Assembly (NCBI RefSeq): GCF_014643535.1
Contig: NZ_BMJQ01000012.1
Span: forward strand, 124,001 to 188,000
Origin: Aliidongia dinghuensis
GTDB taxonomy: Bacteria > Pseudomonadota > Alphaproteobacteria > ATCC43930 > CGMCC-115725
Reading direction: 5' to 3'
Length of the DNA stretch: 64,000 nt
Position 1 is the stretch's first letter. The number at the start of each line of letters is the position of its first letter. Shown piece by piece: positions 53,081-61,547 of this stretch. The translations under genes were made by a program, and so were the position numbers. Below the pieces are notes generated by a model. The model saw only the letters and a program-made list of their open reading frames with translations. It made no database searches and was not told the DNA's origin.

Positions 53081-53221
53081 CCTTTGAACCATTAACCAGG
53101 TTGCCTAAAACTGGCCCTCATATGTAGGAGGGCCGCCGGGACCGCAAGAGCGGAGAGGCGCCGGCCTGGCAGTCGGCGGGCGGTGCTTGCATTTGTGCAT
53201 CATCCGCCCGATCTTGCCTGC

Positions 53222-55732
53222 ATGGGATCGACCCTCGAGCACGGGCGGGTCACGGCGGTATTGGGGCCGACCAATACCGGCAAGACCCATCTCGCCATCG
53301 AACGCATGCTGGGCCACGCCTCGGGCATGATCGGTTTCCCGTTGCGCCTCCTGGCGCGCGAGAACTACGACCGGATGGTGCGCGCGAAGGGGGCCCGGGC
53401 CGTCGCGCTCATCACCGGCGAGGAAAAGATCCTGCCGCCGAACCCGAGCTGGTTCGTCTGCACCGTCGAATCCATGCCTTTGGACCGCTATGTCGATTTC
53501 CTTGCGATCGACGAGATCCAGCTCGCGGCCGATCCGGAGCGCGGCCATATCTTCACCGATCGGCTGCTGCATGCGCGCGGCCGGTACGAGACCATGTTCT
53601 TGGGCTCCGACACGATCCGGCCGCTCATGCGCAAGCTCGTGCCCGAGGCCGAGGTCATCTCGCGCCCCCGCTTCTCGACCCTGACCTATACCGGCCCGCA
53701 GAAGGTGACGCGCCTGCCGCCCCGGAGCGCGGTCGTCGCCTTCTCCGTCTCCGACGTGTTCGAGCTGGCCGAACTGGTGCGGCGCCAGCGCGGCGGCACC
53801 GCCGTGGTGTTGGGCGCCTTGAGCCCGCGCGCGCGCAACGCCCAGGTCGCGATGTACCAGGCGGGCGAGGTCGACTACATGGTCGCGACGGACGCGATCG
53901 GCATGGGCCTCAACATGGACCTGGACCATGTCGCCTTCGCGCGGCTCATCAAGTTCGACGGGCGCGGGCCTCGGCGCCTGACCGCGCCCGAGATCGCGCA
54001 GATCGCCGGCCGCGCCGGACGGCACATGAACGACGGCACGTTCGGCACCACGGCCGAAGTCGGGCCGCTCGACGAGGAGCTGGTCGAGGCGGTCGAGGCC
54101 CATCGCTTTGACCCGCTGCAGGCGCTCTGGTGGCGCAATTCTCGCCTCGACTTCCGCTCGGCCGGGCTGCTCTTGAAGAGCCTCGAGGCGCGGCCGCCCT
54201 CGCCGGTGCTGCTGCGCGCCGACGCCGGTGACGACCAGCTGGCGCTCGAGGCGCTCGCCCGCCAGGCCGACATCGCCCGCCAAGCGACCAACCCGGGTGC
54301 TGTCCGCCTGCTGTGGGAAGTCTGCCAGATCCCCGATTTCCGCAAGGTCATGTCCGAGGATCACGCCCGGCTGCTGGCCCAGGTCTACCGCCACCTGACC
54401 GGCCCGGACGAGCGCCTGCCGCCGGACTGGGTGGCAAGCCAGATCACGCGCATCGACCGGCTCGACGGCGACATCGATACGCTGGTGCAGCGCATCGCCC
54501 ATATCCGCACCTGGACCTACATCACGAACCGCGTCGGCTGGCTTGCCGACGGCGCCCATTGGCAGGAGCGCACGCGCGCGGTCGAGGACAAGCTGTCAGA
54601 CGCGCTGCACGACCGGCTGACCCAGCGTTTCGTCGATCGCCGCTCCGCCTTCCTGGTGCGCAGCCTTGCCGAGGCGCGCGAACTGCTGGCCAGCGTCAAC
54701 GACGCGGGCGAGGTCTGGGTCGAGGGCCATTTCGTCGGCGCCATGACGGGCTTCTCGTTCCATCCCGACCCCGCGGCGTCGGGAGAGGGGGTCCGGACGC
54801 TGATGGCCGCGGCCAATCGCATGCTGCGCGGCGAGGTGCAGGCGCGCGCGCGCCGGCTGGCTGCGGCCGACGACACCGTCTTTACGCTGGCGCCGGATGG
54901 GACGCTCGGCTGGGAAGGCGAGGCGGTCGCACGCCTCGTCGCGGGCGACCAGCCGCTTGCCCCGCGCGTCGAGCTGCGCCCGGTCGATTTCCTCGACGGC
55001 GAGCTGCGCGATGCGGTCAAGCGCCGGCTCGAACGTTTCGTCCGCACGGCGATCGAGCATACGCTGGCGCCGATTCACGCGGCGTTGGCGAGCCCGCTGC
55101 CGGCCGCCGCGCGCGGGCTCGCGTTCCAGCTGGGCGAGGGGCTGGGTTCGCTCGATGCCGAGCCGGTCCGGCCGCTCGTCGCGGCGCTCGATGCCGACGA
55201 TCGCAAGGCGCTGGCTCGGCTCGGCATTCGTTTCGGAACAGAAACGATCTATTTCGATCGGCTCCTGAAGCCGGCGGCGGTAGCGTTGCGCGCCCTGCTC
55301 TGGGCGATCCACCAGGGCACCGGCCCCTTGGCCGTGCCGCCGCCCGGGCGCCTGTCCGTGGCGCGCGACAACCTGCCTGTCGCCTATTTCGACGCGATCG
55401 GCTATCGGCCGGTCGGCCCGCGCGCGATCCGGGCCGACCGGCTGGAGGCGCTCGCCGCGGCCTTGAGGGCCAAGGCGCGCGACGGCCGTTTCGGGCTCGA
55501 CGGCACGCTTGCGGCCCTCGTCGGCGCCCCGCTCGCCGAGCTGCCGGACGTCGTGACGGCGCTGGGCTATCGCGGCGTGGTCGAGAACGGTGCCGTGAGC
55601 TTCCTTGCCAAGCGCCGCGCCGTCCGGCGCAAGGAGGCCCGGTCGAAGGAGGCCCGGTCGCCGGCCCAGAAGCCGACGCCGTCGGCCGATCATCCGTTCG
55701 CCAAGCTCGGCGCACTCAGGGGCCACGCTTGA
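53222..55732 (+). CDS. Suv3-type RNA/DNA helicase
   Basis: This 836-residue superfamily 2 helicase resembles mitochondrial Suv3. Walker A is GPTNTGKTH (about 16-24), Walker B is AIDEIQLAAD (a DEIQ-type box, near 95-104), and motif VI is QIAGRAGRHMNDG (near 260). The C-terminal half is specific to the alphaproteobacterial/mitochondrial group and suggests RNA turnover. Start 53222 is preferred, with in-frame ATG 53183 possible. The end has a 15-bp duplication (KEARSKEARS) and overlaps the S4 gene start. Confidence 0.88.
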   Translation: MGSTLEHGRVTAVLGPTNTGKTHLAIERMLGHASGMIGFPLRLLARENYDRMVRAKGARAVALITGEEKILPPNPSWFVCTVESMPLDRYVDFLAIDEIQLAADPERGHIFTDRLLHARGRYETMFLGSDTIRPLMRKLVPEAEVISRPRFSTLTYTGPQKVTRLPPRSAVVAFSVSDVFELAELVRRQRGGTAVVLGALSPRARNAQVAMYQAGEVDYMVATDAIGMGLNMDLDHVAFARLIKFDGRGPRRLTAPEIAQIAGRAGRHMNDGTFGTTAEVGPLDEELVEAVEAHRFDPLQALWWRNSRLDFRSAGLLLKSLEARPPSPVLLRADAGDDQLALEALARQADIARQATNPGAVRLLWEVCQIPDFRKVMSEDHARLLAQVYRHLTGPDERLPPDWVASQITRIDRLDGDIDTLVQRIAHIRTWTYITNRVGWLADGAHWQERTRAVEDKLSDALHDRLTQRFVDRRSAFLVRSLAEARELLASVNDAGEVWVEGHFVGAMTGFSFHPDPAASGEGVRTLMAAANRMLRGEVQARARRLAAADDTVFTLAPDGTLGWEGEAVARLVAGDQPLAPRVELRPVDFLDGELRDAVKRRLERFVRTAIEHTLAPIHAALASPLPAAARGLAFQLGEGLGSLDAEPVRPLVAALDADDRKALARLGIRFGTETIYFDRLLKPAAVALRALLWAIHQGTGPLAVPPPGRLSVARDNLPVAYFDAIGYRPVGPRAIRADRLEALAAALRAKARDGRFGLDGTLAALVGAPLAELPDVVTALGYRGVVENGAVSFLAKRRAVRRKEARSKEARSPAQKPTPSADHPFAKLGALRGHA
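55631..55660. repeat. 15-bp in-frame tandem duplication at the 3' end of the Suv3-type gene
   Basis: AAGGAGGCCCGGTCG is repeated exactly at 55631-55645 and 55646-55660, encoding KEARSKEARS. It is in the basic C-terminal tail, about 25 codons before the stop. Confidence 0.9.
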
Positions 55733-56070
55733 CCGACGACGGCGCCACACTCCGCATCGACAAATGGCTGTGGCACGCGCGCTTCGCCAAGACGCGGTCG
55801 CTCGCCGCCCGGCTCTGCACCTTGGGCGCGGTCGAGCTCGGCGGCCGACCGGTGGCGAAGCCCAACCAGGCGGTGCGCATCGGCAGCCAGATCACGGTCG
55901 TGCATGGCCGCCAGCGTCGCCGGGTCGAGGTGCTGGGCCTGGGCACGCGGCGCGGACCGGCCACCGAGGCGCAGATGCTCTATCGCGAACTCGCCCCGCC
56001 AGAGCCGCTCACACGCATCCCGGACGACTGGGAACCGCTGCTGGCCGAGGACGAAAGCTTCCGGGATTAG
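55729..56070 (+). CDS. S4-domain RNA-binding protein (Hsp15/HslR type)
   Basis: This 113-residue protein has an S4 RNA-binding domain (LRIDKWLWHARFAKTRSLAA, about 8-27, then GRPVAKPNQAVRIGSQITV). Hsp15 rescues nascent-chain-blocked 50S subunits. The start is TTG 55729, overlapping the helicase TGA. There is no closer ATG, so the two are likely co-translated. The stop TAG overlaps by four bases with the convergent methyltransferase stop. Confidence 0.86.
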   Translation: MTDDGATLRIDKWLWHARFAKTRSLAARLCTLGAVELGGRPVAKPNQAVRIGSQITVVHGRQRRRVEVLGLGTRRGPATEAQMLYRELAPPEPLTRIPDDWEPLLAEDESFRD

Positions 56071-56654
56071 GGCTTCCGCGCGACGACGCGGCGGATCCGC
56101 TTGCCGGACGACTGGCTCACCGGCTCGTCGTCGAACAGGATCGCGGCATCGCCCAGCCCCTCGAATACCTGCGCGGGGTCGACCGCGGCATAAAGGCGGC
56201 CGTATTCGTCACGTCGCTCAGCGCCCTCGGTGACGCGCCAGCTGAGATAGAGCGTGCCGCCGGAACGCAGGATGTCGATCAGACGACCGACCGCGGCGGC
56301 CACCGTCGCCGGCGCCAGATGCATGATCACGGTTTCGCAGAGCACGTTGGCGAAGCTGGCCGGCGCAATCCCGTCCAGCGCCGGCAGCGCCGCCTTCTCG
56401 AACCGCAGCGCCGGGTGCCGCCGCCGCGCCTCGGCGATGAGCCCGTCGGACGCGTCGTAGCCGATCGCGGGAAAGCCGTTCCGGTCGAGCCAAGCCGTGT
56501 CGCGTCCCGCGCCGCAGCCGATGTCGGCGGTCGGGCCGGGCCCGAAGAAGCGGTGAAGCAGCGCCTGCATGTCGGCCGGCGCCGGCTGCGCGTTCCATTC
56601 CTCGGCGAAGGCGGCGGCGGCGCGGTCGTAAGCCCCCAGCGTTGCGTCATCCAT
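56067..56654 (-). CDS. Class I SAM-dependent methyltransferase
   Basis: This 195-residue methyltransferase has motif I DIGCGAGRDTAWLDRNGFPA (about 40-59) and IGYDASDGLI (motif II). LCETVIMHL is present in the post-I region. The substrate is unknown. Start 56654 (MDDATLGAYDRAAAAFAEEW) fits the fold, and the eight-base overlap with the upstream NTF2 gene suggests coupling. Confidence 0.82.
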   Translation of the reverse strand: MDDATLGAYDRAAAAFAEEWNAQPAPADMQALLHRFFGPGPTADIGCGAGRDTAWLDRNGFPAIGYDASDGLIAEARRRHPALRFEKAALPALDGIAPASFANVLCETVIMHLAPATVAAAVGRLIDILRSGGTLYLSWRVTEGAERRDEYGRLYAAVDPAQVFEGLGDAAILFDDEPVSQSSGKRIRRVVARKP

Positions 56655-57057
56655 CGGTCGCTTCCAGACGTTCGTAGCCAGGGAGATGGCCGGCGCTGCG
56701 CCAGGCCGGCGGCGGCTCGGCCGTCGCCCAATATTCCACGATCTCGCGGATGAGCACACCTTCGACCCGGAACAGCGAGGTCGCGAAAAAGCGCTGCGGC
56801 GGGTGCTCGACCCGCACCAGGCTCAGGATCCGCCCGTCGGCGAGCGGAGCCACCTCCTGCACATGGATCGACCAGCCCTCGGGATAGGCCGCGTTGACCG
56901 CGATCGCGGCATCGCCGCCGTGGAAGCGTTCGCCGCTGCAGGGCCAGGTCATGACGGCGTCATCGGCGAAGAGCGCCCGTGCCGCCGCCCAGTCGCGCCG
57001 CTCGAACCGCTCCCAGAGCGCGCGGACGATGGCGACGGCAGCGTTGTCGGCCGTCAT
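56647..57057 (-). CDS. NTF2/SnoaL-fold protein
   Basis: This 136-residue protein has the SnoaL-like pattern VRALWERFERRDWAAARALF, then DDAVMTWPCSGERFHG, and IVEYWATAEPPPAWR at the end. Such folds bind small molecules or act as isomerases, exact role unknown. Start 57057. The start overlaps the stop of the DUF938 gene and the stop overlaps the methyltransferase start, so three genes form one tight operon. Confidence 0.78.
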   Translation of the reverse strand: MTADNAAVAIVRALWERFERRDWAAARALFADDAVMTWPCSGERFHGGDAAIAVNAAYPEGWSIHVQEVAPLADGRILSLVRVEHPPQRFFATSLFRVEGVLIREIVEYWATAEPPPAWRSAGHLPGYERLEATDG

Positions 57058-57707
57058 CGCCGGCGAAACACCAGGCTCAGGTTGTTGGCCGGCATTTCGA
57101 CGATCTCGTCGAGCGCCAGGCCCGCGCCGTCGGCGACCTCGACCACGGCCTCCAGGTCGCGCACGCCCCAGGCCGGGTCCTGCCGGCGCAGGTTCTGGTC
57201 GAACGCCTCGTTGCTGGGCGCGGTATGGCGTCCGCCGCGCTTGTAGGGGCCGTAGAGCACGAGGGGTGCTCCCGCCGTCAGCACCCGTGCGGCACCACCC
57301 AACAGGCCGACGGCGGCCGCCCAGGGGGCGATATGGATCATGTTGATGGCGATGACCGCGTCGGCCCGGTCGACGGGCCAGTTCGGCTGCGCCGTGTCGA
57401 GCGCCACGGGGGCGAGCACGTTCGTGAGGCCGGCCTCCGCCGTCCAGGCGACGATGCTGGCGCGCGCCGCGGCGTCGATGTCGCTCGGCTGCCATGTCCG
57501 ATCAGGCAGGTGGCGGCCGAAGAAGACCGCGTGCTCGCCTGTGCCGCTTGCGACCTCGAGCACGAGGGCGGCCGGCGGCAGGACACGGGTGAGCAGCGCC
57601 AGGATCGGCCCGCGATTGCGCTCGGTGGCTGGCGCGAACCGGCGCGGATCGATCGGCGGATCGGCCCGCGTATCGTCCGGGCGAGTGGGATCGGGCGCGG
57701 AGGTCAT
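57054..57707 (-). CDS. DUF938 family SAM-dependent methyltransferase-like protein
   Basis: This 217-residue protein carries the DUF938 opening RRFAPATERNRGPILALL and SAM-binding VLEVASGTGEHAVFF (about 53-67). It also has WQPSDIDAAARASI and INMIHIAPW, all diagnostic of the family. The enzymatic product is unknown. First gene of the three-gene minus-strand operon, divergent from the TerB-like gene. Confidence 0.87.
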   Translation of the reverse strand: MTSAPDPTRPDDTRADPPIDPRRFAPATERNRGPILALLTRVLPPAALVLEVASGTGEHAVFFGRHLPDRTWQPSDIDAAARASIVAWTAEAGLTNVLAPVALDTAQPNWPVDRADAVIAINMIHIAPWAAAVGLLGGAARVLTAGAPLVLYGPYKRGGRHTAPSNEAFDQNLRRQDPAWGVRDLEAVVEVADGAGLALDEIVEMPANNLSLVFRRR

Positions 57708-57788
57708 GGCCCGCCGAGGATAACAGCGGCCGGCCGGGCGACGCCATGCTTGTTGAATGGGTGCGCTGCTCATGCTAGGCACCCGCGT

Positions 57789-58298
57789 ATGTTCGACCGC
57801 ATCCTCGATCTGCTGATGCCCGGCGACGCGCCGCGAGCCGCGATGGAGGTCCCTGTGGCGGTCGCGGCCCTGCTGGTCGAGGCGGCGCGGATGGACGATC
57901 GCTTCGATCCGGCCGAACGGACGGCGATCCGCCGGCTGCTTGGCCAGCGCTTCGACCTCGACGCCGCCGCGATCGACCGGCTGATCGACGCGGCGGAACG
58001 GGCGGTCGAGGGATCGAGCGCGCTCTATCGCTTCACCCGGGTCGTGGCCGAACGGTTCGACCCGGCGGCGCGGATCAGCATGATCGAGATGCTGTGGGAA
58101 GTGGCCTATGCCGACGGCGTGCTGGACCCGGAGGAGGATGCGCTGATCCGACGGATCGCCGGCCTGATCTTCGTCGAGGATCACGAGCGCGGGGCCGCGC
58201 GCCGGCGGGTGCTGGCCCGGCTCGGACAAGGACCGGGCCATGAGCCCGAGGCGGGGCAGAGGCCGGGGCAAGGATCGAAGCGCGGGCCATGGGGCTGA
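57789..58298 (+). CDS. TerB-like (tellurite resistance TerB family) protein
   Basis: This 169-residue acidic helical protein has the TerB core AALLVEAARMDDRFDPAERTAI (about 30-51) and the paired MLWEVAYADGVLDPEEDALIRRI (about 100-122). These are the two metal-binding-like acidic helices. A Gly/Gln/Pro-rich tail follows. No other ter gene is near, so a tellurite role is not implied. Confidence 0.83.
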   Translation: MFDRILDLLMPGDAPRAAMEVPVAVAALLVEAARMDDRFDPAERTAIRRLLGQRFDLDAAAIDRLIDAAERAVEGSSALYRFTRVVAERFDPAARISMIEMLWEVAYADGVLDPEEDALIRRIAGLIFVEDHERGAARRRVLARLGQGPGHEPEAGQRPGQGSKRGPWG

Positions 58299-58409
58299 GG
58301 CGCTGAATTTTGGACTTGCGGGAAGATCGCCCGCGCTCTTTCAATGCGGGCGGCTGCGGCCGCGGACAGGATCGCGGCCGCGCCGCCGTAACACGGGGAA
58401 ACAAGATCG

Positions 58410-58745
58410 ATGAGCTACGTCGTCACCGAAGCCTGCATCAAGTGCAAGTACATGGACTGCGTGGAGGTCTGCCCGGTCGATTGCTTCTACGAGGGCGAGA
58501 CCATGCTGGTCATCAACCCGGACGAATGCATCGATTGCGGCGTGTGCGAGCCGGAATGCCCGGCCGAGGCGATCGTGCCCGACAGCGACGGCCAAGCCGA
58601 GAAGTGGCTGCAGCTCAATCGCGATTACTCGGGCAACTGGCCTAATATCACCCGCAAGGGCGAAGCCCCGGCCGACGCCGATGCCTGGAAGGGCGTCGAG
58701 GGCAAGTTCGACAAGTTCTTCTCGCCCGAGCCCGGCAAGCGCTGA
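58410..58745 (+). CDS. fdxA: 7Fe ferredoxin FdxA
   Basis: This 111-residue electron carrier has one [3Fe-4S] and one [4Fe-4S] cluster. Cysteines in [20 protein letters not shown] and the second set [14 protein letters not shown] have the FdxA spacing. The C-terminal helix region is standard. The stop codon lies inside the first unit of a 16-bp tandem repeat. carD follows 380 bases downstream, a common alphaproteobacterial pairing. Confidence 0.95.
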
Positions 58746-58790
58746 CTTAGGCAAGCGCTGACTTAGGCAAGCGCCGATTTCGGCAAGTTC
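58734..58790. repeat. 16-bp tandem repeat spanning the fdxA stop
   Basis: GGCAAGCGCTGACTTA occurs at 58734-58749 and 58750-58765. A degenerate third copy (GGCAAGCGCCGATTTC, 58766-58781) and a partial fourth follow. The first unit contains the fdxA TGA. The period is not a multiple of three, which suits a noncoding extension. Confidence 0.88.
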
Positions 58791-59125
58791 GGGGCGGAAC
58801 TCCCGCCGGTAGCGGGGGCGTTCTACCCCGGGCTGCGGCGAAAGGCCGCCTGCGCGGCCGTCTGCTTCATGGTTGCCATGCCGACGCCGTATGGCGTTGG
58901 GCTGGTAATTGTCGTGACTTTTGTGTTACTGTTCTTTTCGAACGGAGCATTGAAGACGTCTCGGCACAGTCTGAACTTCCGGGCATCTTCGGTATGCGGC
59001 CCGCTCACCCCCATCCGTATGGTCGGATTGCATCCCTCGGTGCTGGCGAGGCATCTTTTTCGCGGGCAGCCGGGGGTTGTGACGAGCGCCTTACCGACCT
59101 GGCCACAGGCTTTTGAGAGAATCGG
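58746..59125. other. fdxA-carD spacer
   Basis: These 380 bases hold the 16-bp repeat tail, a hairpin near 58800-58830 and an AT-richer patch near 58910-58950 that could be the carD promoter. An in-frame ORF at 58869-59141 (MVAMPTPYGVGLVIVVTFVLL) is hydrophobic at its start but overlaps the carD start and lacks a family match, so it is not called. Confidence 0.45.
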
Positions 59126-59623
59126 ATGTCGGAAAAGTTAGCTTTTGCTGAGGGCGATTTCGTCGTCTACCCGAGTCATGGCGTCGGCAAGATCATGGGC
59201 ATCGAGGCCCAGGAGATCTCCGGTTATCGGCTGAATGTTTTCGTGGTGCATTTCGACAAGGACCGCATGACGCTCCGCGTTCCGGTCACCAAGGCCAAGG
59301 CTTCTGGCCTGCGTCGTCTGTCGACGCAGAAGGAGATGCAGGTGGCCCTGGTCAAGCTCAGGGGCCGGTCGAAGGCGAAACGCACCATGTGGAGCCGGCG
59401 CGCCCAGGAGTACGAAGCGAAGATCAACTCCGGCGATCCGGCGTCGATTGCCGAGGTCGTGCGCGACCTCTATCGCAATGCCGGCCAGCCGGACCAGTCC
59501 TACAGCGAGCGCCAGATCTATCAGGCGGCGCTTGACCGGTTGGTGCGCGAGTTCGCGGCCGTCGAGGCGATCGACGAGACCACGGCGACCGAACGCCTCG
59601 AGGAGATGCTGAACGCCGCCTGA
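59126..59623 (+). CDS. carD: CarD/CdnL transcriptional regulator
   Basis: This 165-residue protein has an N-terminal RNA-polymerase-interacting Tudor-like domain (DFVVYPSHGVGKIMGIE, about 9-25) and a C-terminal helical DNA-binding part with WSRRAQEYEAKINSGDP. It stabilises the open complex at rRNA and other promoters. Start 59126 is preceded by a weak GAGAGA. Confidence 0.95.
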   Translation: MSEKLAFAEGDFVVYPSHGVGKIMGIEAQEISGYRLNVFVVHFDKDRMTLRVPVTKAKASGLRRLSTQKEMQVALVKLRGRSKAKRTMWSRRAQEYEAKINSGDPASIAEVVRDLYRNAGQPDQSYSERQIYQAALDRLVREFAAVEAIDETTATERLEEMLNAA

Positions 59624-59682
59624 CGCCTGACGGACGGATCGGCACCGATCCGTCCGATGCGCCTGGGTGACCAAATGACAAG

Positions 59683-59727
59683 GCCGGCCTGCGGTCCCCG
59701 ATTCGTCGGGGGCGCACGCCGGCTTTT
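59683..59727 (+). terminator. Rho-independent terminator after carD
   Basis: GCCGGC (59683-59688) pairs with GCCGGC (59718-59723) around an inner GTCCCC..GGGGGC stem. TTTTGCGTTT follows. A second smaller inverted repeat GGACGGATCGG/CCGATCCGTCC lies just upstream at 59632-59655. Confidence 0.78.
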
Positions 59728-59786
59728 GCGTTTGTTCCCGTGTCGTGCCTCTGGCGCGATGTCGGGGGCCCGCGCTAAGCTCGCCC

Positions 59787-60605
59787 ATGATGAGCCAGCC
59801 GCGCACCCCGCCCCGTCGTCGTTTCGGTATCCTGGTTGGCCGGCGTCGCGTCTGGGCGATCTCGTCGATTCACGCCGACGTCGGTCGGCTCCGCACCATC
59901 CATGGCGCCATCGAACGGCGGCTGCAGCCGGGCGATGCGCTGGTCTATCTCGGCAACATGATCGGCCGCGGCCCCGCCGTGCGCGAGACGATTGCCGAGC
60001 TCCTGTCGTTCCGCAGCTTCTTCATCGCCCGGCCCGGCGCCTTCGCAAGCGATCTCGTCTACCTGCGCGGCAGCCAGGAAGAGATGTGGCAGAAGCTCCT
60101 GGAGCTGCAGTTCGCGCCCAACCCGGCCGAGGTCTATCGCTGGATGCTCGACCATGGCCTCGCCGCGACGCTCGACGGCTATGGCATCGATCGCCAGCAG
60201 GGGCTGACGGCGAGCCGTGACGGGCCGGTCGCCATCACGCGCTGGACGAACGCGGTCAGGAGCGCCGTCAACGGGGCGCCCGGCCACGGCAACCTGCTGA
60301 CGGCGCTCCGGCGCGCCGCCTACACTGCCGGCAACGAGCTCCTGTTCGTCCATGCCGGCATCGATCCGACCCGGCCCTTGACCGCCCAGCACGACAGTTT
60401 CTGGTGGGGCGGCGGTGGCTTCCTCGACCTGACGGAGCCCTACGGCGGCTTCGTCAAGGTCGTGCGCGGCTTCGACCGACATCACGGTGGGCTGCAGCAG
60501 GCGCCATTCGCCATCTCCATGGACCGGGGCTGCGGCTTCGGCGGGCCGCTCGCCGCCGCCTGCCTGACGCTCGACGGCCAGGTCGATGAGGCCTACGAGG
60601 CCTGA
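59787..60605 (+). CDS. PPP-phosphatase-like protein with degenerate active site
   Basis: This 272-residue protein is related to bacterial PPP metallophosphatases by layout: SSIHADVGRL (about 26-35) sits at the GDxHG block, YLGNMIGRGP (about 54-63) at GDxxDRG and VYLRGSQEEM (about 91-100) at GNHE. FVHAGIDPTRPL (187-198) matches the HAG block and DRGCGFGGPL the late DxGxxxGG block. Metal and catalytic residues Asp, Asp, Asn and the GNHE His are replaced, so catalysis is doubtful. Start 59787 has a second ATG immediately after. Confidence 0.72.
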   Translation: MMSQPRTPPRRRFGILVGRRRVWAISSIHADVGRLRTIHGAIERRLQPGDALVYLGNMIGRGPAVRETIAELLSFRSFFIARPGAFASDLVYLRGSQEEMWQKLLELQFAPNPAEVYRWMLDHGLAATLDGYGIDRQQGLTASRDGPVAITRWTNAVRSAVNGAPGHGNLLTALRRAAYTAGNELLFVHAGIDPTRPLTAQHDSFWWGGGGFLDLTEPYGGFVKVVRGFDRHHGGLQQAPFAISMDRGCGFGGPLAAACLTLDGQVDEAYEA

Positions 60606-60647: not shown

Positions 60648-61547
60648 ATGGCGGCACGGGCGACGCGGTGGCAGATGGCGCTGGGGCAGATGGCGCTGGG
60701 GCTGATAGCGCTGACCGGCGGCATCATGCTTGGTCCGGGAACCGCCATCGCCCGTTCACGGACCGTGGCCGATGCACCGCCCGACCTGCCCGAGATCGCC
60801 GCCGGCACCGTCGCCTCAGTCGAGGATGGCGCGACGCTGACGCTCGACGATGGCCGCGTGCTGCGCCTCGCTGGCCTGCTGGCGCCTGCACCGCCGCTGG
60901 CGCTGGGCCCGGACACCGCTTGGCCCGCGGCTGATGCTGCCCGCCGGGCGCTCGCCGACCAGGTGCTGGGCCAACCGGTCAGCCTGCACGCGGCCGCCGC
61001 GGCGCCCGACCGGCACGGCCGGCTCCTGGGCCAGCTGGTGCTCAGCGACGGTACCTGGCTGCAGGCCGCCCTCGTCCGCGCCGGCGCCGACCGGGTCGAG
61101 CCCGCCGCCGCAACGGCGCCGCTGGCACCAGCCCTGCTCAAGGCCGAGGCCGATGCCCGGCGCCACCATCGCGGGCTCTGGCGCTTGCGCGCCTATGCCG
61201 TGCTGACGCCCGAGCGGCTCGCCGCGCGCGATACCGGCACTTTCGTGCTGGTCGAAGGCCGCGTGCTCAGCGTCGCCGCCACCCACGAGGCGACCTTCCT
61301 CGATTTCGCAGCCGACTGGCACCACGGCTTCACCGTGCGTGTGCCGCATGCGGTGCTGGCGAGGGCGCCGGCGTTCGACCCAGCTGCGTTCGAAGGCCGG
61401 CGGGTGCGCGTGCGCGGCTGGCTCGTGTGGGAGGGCCGGCCGATCCTCGAGCTTGCCGACCCGACCGCCCTCGAACCGCTCCCCGGCCGGCGCATGGCCA
61501 CCCAACCCGCGTCAAGGCTTCCCGCTGACGAGCGCTCTGCGCTATAA
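60648..61547 (+). CDS. Thermonuclease-like (SNase fold) secreted protein, degenerate
   Basis: This 299-residue protein has a signal-like N-terminus containing a 15-bp in-frame duplication (QMALGQMALG). The SNase-like part spans about 50-165 (VASVEDGATLTLDDGRVLRLAGLLAP and DRHGRLLGQLVLSDG). Arg73 and Arg125 match catalytic arginines, but the Ca-binding Asp and the catalytic Glu positions are Leu78 and Ala81. A second domain (about 200-285) may be an OB-fold. Nuclease activity is doubtful. Confidence 0.68.
   Translation: MAARATRWQMALGQMALGLIALTGGIMLGPGTAIARSRTVADAPPDLPEIAAGTVASVEDGATLTLDDGRVLRLAGLLAPAPPLALGPDTAWPAADAARRALADQVLGQPVSLHAAAAAPDRHGRLLGQLVLSDGTWLQAALVRAGADRVEPAAATAPLAPALLKAEADARRHHRGLWRLRAYAVLTPERLAARDTGTFVLVEGRVLSVAATHEATFLDFAADWHHGFTVRVPHAVLARAPAFDPAAFEGRRVRVRGWLVWEGRPILELADPTALEPLPGRRMATQPASRLPADERSAL
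60671..60715. repeat. 15-bp in-frame tandem duplication in the SNase-like gene
   Basis: GCAGATGGCGCTGGG is repeated exactly at 60671-60685 and 60686-60700, with a degenerate third copy to 60715. It lies in the signal-peptide region. Confidence 0.85.

Follow-up and report, generated by a model that had tools for sequence, protein, structure and literature searches.

A conserved bacterial family of predicted PPP-type pseudophosphatases encoded beside the gene for the transcription regulator CarD

The PPP-type pseudophosphatases of which we have found accounts come from protists, being predicted in kinetoplastids and characterised in Plasmodium (PfPPP8), as far as our searches show. The kinetoplastid-specific PPPs, whose catalytic residues are substituted, were predicted to be pseudophosphatases in 2007, before PfPPP8, and substrate trapping or scaffolding has been proposed for them (PMC2175518, PMC2994645). 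PfPPP8, an apicomplexan PPP-type pseudophosphatase, is presented by its authors as the first in the PPP family and the first to be characterised experimentally (PMC10317984). The three pseudophosphatases of another account (PMC3827238) were considered as a precedent and set aside, because that account turns on the PTP superfamily. The Rhilphs are described as retaining every expected metal-binding residue, and the bacterial-type PPP motif is given as (I/L/V)D(S/T)G (PMC535813). In the open-licence literature that we searched, no earlier description was found of the family reported here or of any bacterial PPP-type pseudophosphatase.

The window, by which we mean the whole 64,000-nucleotide stretch of DNA analysed, contains on its forward strand an open reading frame of 272 residues with no internal stops (59787–60605), which its translation, predicted model and orthologue alignment lead us to annotate as a putative PPP-fold pseudophosphatase. 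All five catalytic motifs, encoded on the same strand, are changed to some degree. The GDxHG motif has become SSIHA (residues 26–30; 59862–59876), with the first metal Asp gone and His29 retained; translation and orthologue alignment place GNMIGRG at GDxxDRG (residues 56–62; 59952–59972) and GSQE at GNHE (residues 95–98; 60069–60080); FVHAG (residues 187–191; 60345–60359) retains a histidine that is not fixed in the family; and RGF (residues 227–229; 60465–60473) stands where canonical relatives have HGH, the former HGH(T) motif. Of the seven ligand or catalytic residues scored, H29 and H189 alone are retained. The original prediction, made from the DNA letters, had read these motifs as SSIHA, GNMIGRG, GSQE and GF, with histidines 29 and 189 kept, and the translation bears it out.

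Sequence databases barely register the protein. Pfam returned no match above cut-off (best Metallophos_3, E 0.11), and none of the 12 matches to Metallophos (PF00149) in the host genome lies at this gene, which thus lacks this mark of an active PPP. NCBIfam likewise gave nothing above cut-off, its sole match being ApaH (NF001204, E 0.0058, residues 23–77), which scored 16 bits where the ApaH model sets its cut-off at 176. A PHROGs match to a NinI-like serine/threonine phosphatase family (E 3e-5) and a PDB sequence match to a putative diadenosine tetraphosphatase (E 0.0017) were the other hits, and across 34 aligned orthologues the best Pfam E-value for any member was 0.0041. With no Pfam or NCBIfam match at cut-off, automatic annotation probably misses this family.

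An AlphaFold2 model of the window protein, built on an alignment of 73 sequences, is confident (pLDDT 94.1, pTM 0.91) and has a calcineurin-like phosphoesterase fold of the PPP type, as expected from the original claim that the fold around the motifs is preserved. The best solved structure by Foldseek is 2qjc (E 2.6e-10). By VIA-align, the model matches RLPH2 (5vjv) with Z 21.0 over 224 aligned residues (rmsd 3.2), the phosphatase of PnkP (4j6o) with Z 20.8, 2qjc with 20.2, lambda phosphatase with 18.6 and ApaH (9oly) with 17.6; between 197 and 224 residues, most of the chain, align with these PPP enzymes. A profile of 34 orthologues aligned by hhalign to a profile of nine canonical PPP relatives, all from the same class as the window and retaining the motifs, gave a probability of 99.8 and an E-value of 1e-27. 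This, with the alignment of the model to PPP enzymes, indicates that the motif resemblance is not due to chance, and predicted fold and profile similarity to canonical members together place the protein in the PPP superfamily. A canonical PPP relative also occurs in the host genome (G000:C3:350719-351384).

The protein thus has the same fold as the plant RLPH2 or Rhilph group and the alphaproteobacterial PPP enzymes, and with canonical alphaproteobacterial relatives it shares W119, G124, T128, Y132, H167, Q201, D203, W206 and D246. The last of these lies at the site of the bacterial-type PPP motif, where the window protein reads MDRG, and is kept in 98% of orthologues. Whereas the nine canonical relatives keep their motifs, the window protein lacks D27, D57, D60, N96, H97 and the HGH histidines. 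Its fold also resembles that of ApaH, the symmetrical Ap4A hydrolase (NF001204; 9oly, 2dfj), but the catalytic residues of ApaH are absent.

The gene is widely distributed within one class, which we infer to be the Alphaproteobacteria. In a class sample it was found in at least 103 of 289 genomes and at least 81 of 218 genera, these counts being lower bounds because at most eight first-look candidates were scored per genome (at most six in the phylum sample); by our reading of the sample listing, the carriers span 51 families. The weakest best match among them has an E-value of 2.0e-57, and a clear gap separates it from the next match, at 5.8e-21, which is a second one in a genome already counted. 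Among 99 relatives, 59 genomes match at E ≤1.7e-62 and one more holds a fragment at a contig end, and within the window's own family the gene is present in 35 of 39 genomes, its own included. A phylum sample of 397 genomes, class members among them, gave at least 14 strong matches, all from this class, and ten weaker ones. Carriers among the best 80 of 569 confirmed matches include Magnetospirillum, Azospirillum, Nitrospirillum, Skermanella, Kiloniella, Sneathiella, Pelagibius, Dongia and Telmatospirillum. On a quick tree of CarD, the product of the neighbouring gene (85 sequences from genomes with the pseudophosphatase gene and 40 from genomes without, omitting carriers whose CarD fell outside the retrieved stretch), gene presence is clumped, requiring 13 changes against 27–39 in 200 shuffles, which fits mostly vertical inheritance. 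A plasmid-borne or mobile oddity was considered and rejected: the best 20 of 28 plasmid matches to the window protein are at most 29.1% identical to it and, where annotated, are metallophosphoesterases or serine/threonine protein phosphatases, and a plasmid search with an Azospirillum orthologue returned none at 1e-10.

Directly upstream in the window, on the same strand, lies a gene for a CarD/CdnL-type RNA polymerase-binding regulator (59126–59623; PF21095 E 5.6e-24, PF02559 E 2.3e-14); in alphaproteobacteria CarD is described as an activator that binds RNA polymerase (PMC8407463, PMC5324124). The second conserved upstream neighbour encodes the ferredoxin FdxA (58410–58745, forward strand; NF045490, 168 bits against a cut-off of 135), preceded by a TerB-domain ORF, an S4-domain ORF and a Suv3-like helicase. 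Many genomes of the class show the order helicase, S4, TerB, FdxA, CarD, (pseudophosphatase), RpoH, and its counterpart in the window spans 53183–60605; the place of RpoH in some relatives is taken in the window by an SNase-like (nuclease-like) ORF (60648–61547).

Of the 103 class carriers, 100 were examined, and in 83 of them CarD is the immediate upstream neighbour on the same strand. The same holds at 74 of the 79 loci in the named set that were testable, four of the remaining five having CarD 1.1 to 1.3 kb upstream; the distance is about 1.4–1.5 kb at loci L196 and L230. At locus L197 (G132:C52) FdxA immediately precedes the pseudophosphatase gene and no CarD was found between them; the CarD match of that genome (E 9.8e-18) ranks below most of those listed. 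In the CarD search of the class sample, the carrier G209 yielded no match. RpoH, called by an NCBIfam sigma-32 match above cut-off, follows within 600 nt at 36 of the 98 class loci that were testable; CarD is adjacent at 34 of these and not at the other 2. It also forms the largest cluster of downstream ORFs (62 of 180 loci, drawn from two locus sets in which some genomes may occur twice). Seven other clusters, each of 43 to 60 loci, resemble out-of-frame or mixed GC-rich ORFs and were set aside.

The block also occurs without the gene. Around 40 CarD loci of non-carrier genomes, chosen among the better-scoring CarD matches and not at random, we detected no relative of the pseudophosphatase gene, and RpoH directly follows CarD at 14 of the 38 that were testable. 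The conserved block therefore has a definite place for the gene, at which gain or loss has occurred. CarD itself does not need the gene, being found in 261 of the 289 class genomes against at least 103 for the pseudophosphatase.

Taken together, our preferred reading, to which we assign a probability of about 0.6, is that the window gene belongs to a conserved family of PPP-type pseudophosphatases in which the fold has been kept, catalysis lost and a binding function adopted, most likely in a transcription setting. Its strongest competitor, which we place somewhat short of even odds, is that the protein does bind a partner, but one unrelated to CarD or transcription, its position simply reflecting the old helicase-S4-TerB-FdxA-CarD-RpoH block. 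Genes of mixed function make up that block, which is also found where the gene is absent, so that the neighbourhood may simply have been inherited, and at 14 of the 98 testable class loci, L196 and L230 among them, neither CarD nor RpoH is adjacent. The intergenic sequence also speaks for this alternative. In the window, the 163-nt gap between CarD and the pseudophosphatase gene (59624–59786, forward strand) contains unusually strong hairpins (z −4.85) and a terminator-like site at 59707–59728, one of 4 such sites in 3.3 kb against a shuffle mean of 1.7; the median CarD-to-gene gap is 109 nt, and a hairpin with a T-run, by a home-made criterion applied without a shuffle control, parts the two genes in 62 of 139 gaps of at least 30 nt. 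These terminator-like hairpins make it likely that CarD and the pseudophosphatase gene are often separate transcription units. On the other side stand the direct adjacency of CarD in most of the class genomes examined and the two class loci at which the gene sits beside RpoH though not beside CarD.

CarD sequences gave no convincing interface signature of a partner. Differences between the 85 CarD proteins from genomes with the gene and the 40 from genomes without are scattered and confounded by descent; position 108, for example, is Pro in 85 of 85 and 22 of 40, respectively. The window CarD ends in Ala-Ala, as do 77 of the 85 and 29 of the 40.

The loss of catalytic residues extends across the family. 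A search for orthologues carrying the substitutions found the same kind of substitutions throughout the class, and all 190 distinct orthologous sequences (189 of them covering the N-terminal half) keep at most three of the seven scored ligand or catalytic residues. The first Asp of GDxHG (residue 27) is Asp in none of 189. The first Asp of GDxxDRG (residue 57) is gone in 181 of 189, with Asp in 8, Asn in 166 and Gly in 15, and the second (residue 60) is Gly in all 189 and never Asp. Arg61 is kept in 79 of 188 and gone in 109. Residue 96 is Asn in 5 of 189 (lost in 184); residue 97 is His in 2 (lost in 187) and Gln in 182; residue 229 is His in 4 of 190 (lost in 186), Phe in 87 and Tyr in 69. 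By contrast, Glu98 is present in 189 of 189 and R227 in 175 of 190. Among the seven positions, only H29 is canonical in over 60% of orthologues. The former ligand columns 96, 189 and 229 are variable, and G56, G60, G95, E98 and G228 are fixed. The window protein's two retained histidines do not form a conserved pair, neither being fixed in orthologues (His29 in 170 of 189, His189 in 109 of 190). None of the signatures of an active PPP (GDxHG, GDxxDRG, GNH(E/D) and the HAG/HGH(T) histidines) holds in the orthologue alignment; intact GDxHG or HGHT strings in two orthologues were rejected, as they lie away from the site in their proteins.

We also considered that the protein might still be catalytic, as a remodelled hydrolase that needs little or no metal and uses Q97, E98, R94, R227 and H29 in place of the lost ligands, and judge this unlikely. 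Some positions in the old pocket loops, E98, Q97 and R227, are among the most conserved in the family, and the kinetoplastid ApaH-like phosphatases tolerate a neutral residue at the second Asp of GDxxDRG (PMC2175518), at least one of them, ALPH1, being described as a working parasite decapping enzyme (PMC8220851); loss of the second Asp alone is therefore no proof of inactivity. The loss here, however, involves many residues, D27, D57, N96, H97 and H229 in nearly every sequence and Arg61 in over half, and leaves H29 as the only one of the seven positions that is canonical in over 60% of sequences. Conservation points to there being no hidden metal site, and catalytic activity and metal are very probably absent from the family, although the frequency of H29 and the invariance of E98 leave strictly a little room for one remaining metal or altered chemistry.

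In place of the catalytic residues, a different set has come under constraint. Judged on 49 orthologues, residues that are fixed in the family and mostly absent from the nine canonical relatives include W23, D50, G60, F75, R76, R94, Q97, E99, K103, L104, Q108, R152, W153, T154, R158, G166, W207, G235 and G250, the list not being exhaustive. Many family-specific residues would lie on or beside helices 65–80, 96–104 and 147–162 of the model, as assigned by its DSSP string. The dN/dS ratio of the pseudophosphatase gene is 0.146 between the window and a congener, 0.304 between the window and genome G012, and 0.043 between G012 and G003; for CarD it is 0.036 between the window and the congener. The gene is under purifying selection, weaker than that on CarD. 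The five altered motifs, and one in-frame stop flagged in 5 of 104 class-sample matches, might have pointed to an ordinary PPP phosphatase gene in decay, but that reading has next to no probability and is ruled out by dN/dS (0.146 and 0.043 in two pairs), by conservation (the same loss in 190 orthologues, with 51 alignment columns at identity ≥92%) and by open frames, the window frame being intact and the frames at the five flagged loci running from model positions 8–11 to 265–276, which puts the stop at an edge. The original suggestion that this is not a decaying gene therefore stands, with orthologues under purifying selection across the class, and its description as a pseudophosphatase is strongly supported by fold, by loss in orthologues and by selection, the loss of activity being predicted from sequence.

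We envisage that an ancestor akin to the alphaproteobacterial or plant RLPH-type and ApaH-type PPP phosphatases would have lost the general acid together with the dinuclear metal site while retaining the fold, and that a new set of residues would have been fixed around the old active-site loops and neighbouring helices. A phosphatase with fold and pocket rim but without metal ligands may bind and not cut, and with the metal site lost and the fold and new fixed residues in place, non-catalytic binding would be the most likely mode of action; the family probably works in this way, with the remodelled pocket holding, inside it or across its mouth, either a protein or a ligand that is phosphorylated or a nucleotide. 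Given the place of the gene after CarD and often before RpoH, its most likely single setting would be control of transcription initiation, with CarD, a sigma factor or RNA polymerase as the target, and a link of the family to CarD or RNA polymerase is proposed tentatively.

A more specific version, which we regard as a long shot, is a ligand-sensing partner of CarD/CdnL whose pocket would bind a starvation nucleotide, for instance (p)ppGpp or Ap4A, uncleaved, the loaded form controlling how CarD holds RNA polymerase or how it is passed to ClpXP. In Caulobacter, CdnL is described as being cleared by ClpXP in starvation in a SpoT-dependent manner, and a hypothetical (p)ppGpp-sensitive adaptor for this clearance was proposed (PMC11034885). 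Caulobacter CdnL is described as having a ClpXP degron of the Ala-Ala type, with which the window CarD also ends.

Among the dead phosphatases known elsewhere, PfPPP8 likewise has a PPP domain with an altered GDxxDRG, which reads GNLINRG against GNMIGRG in the window protein (PMC10317984). PfPPP8 is a eukaryotic cell-division ring protein in which one core motif is reported altered, whereas all are altered here; the likeness is one of motif, and the losses may be independent. The kinetoplastid-specific PPPs are also eukaryotic and are set beside the family by description. The DNA polymerase B subunits (Dpb2) are described as a dead calcineurin-like phosphoesterase fold turned structural part of a nucleic-acid machine (PMC7308368); they belong to another protein family, have an embedded OB domain and are likewise compared by description. 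Set against these systems, what appears to be new here is a widely conserved bacterial PPP-type pseudophosphatase, encoded beside the gene for a global transcription factor. A family of this kind in bacteria, retained in many taxonomic families of a single class, would stand apart from the protist cases and lend itself to simple bacterial genetics. By its position next to CarD it is an inexpensive and testable candidate regulator of transcription initiation.
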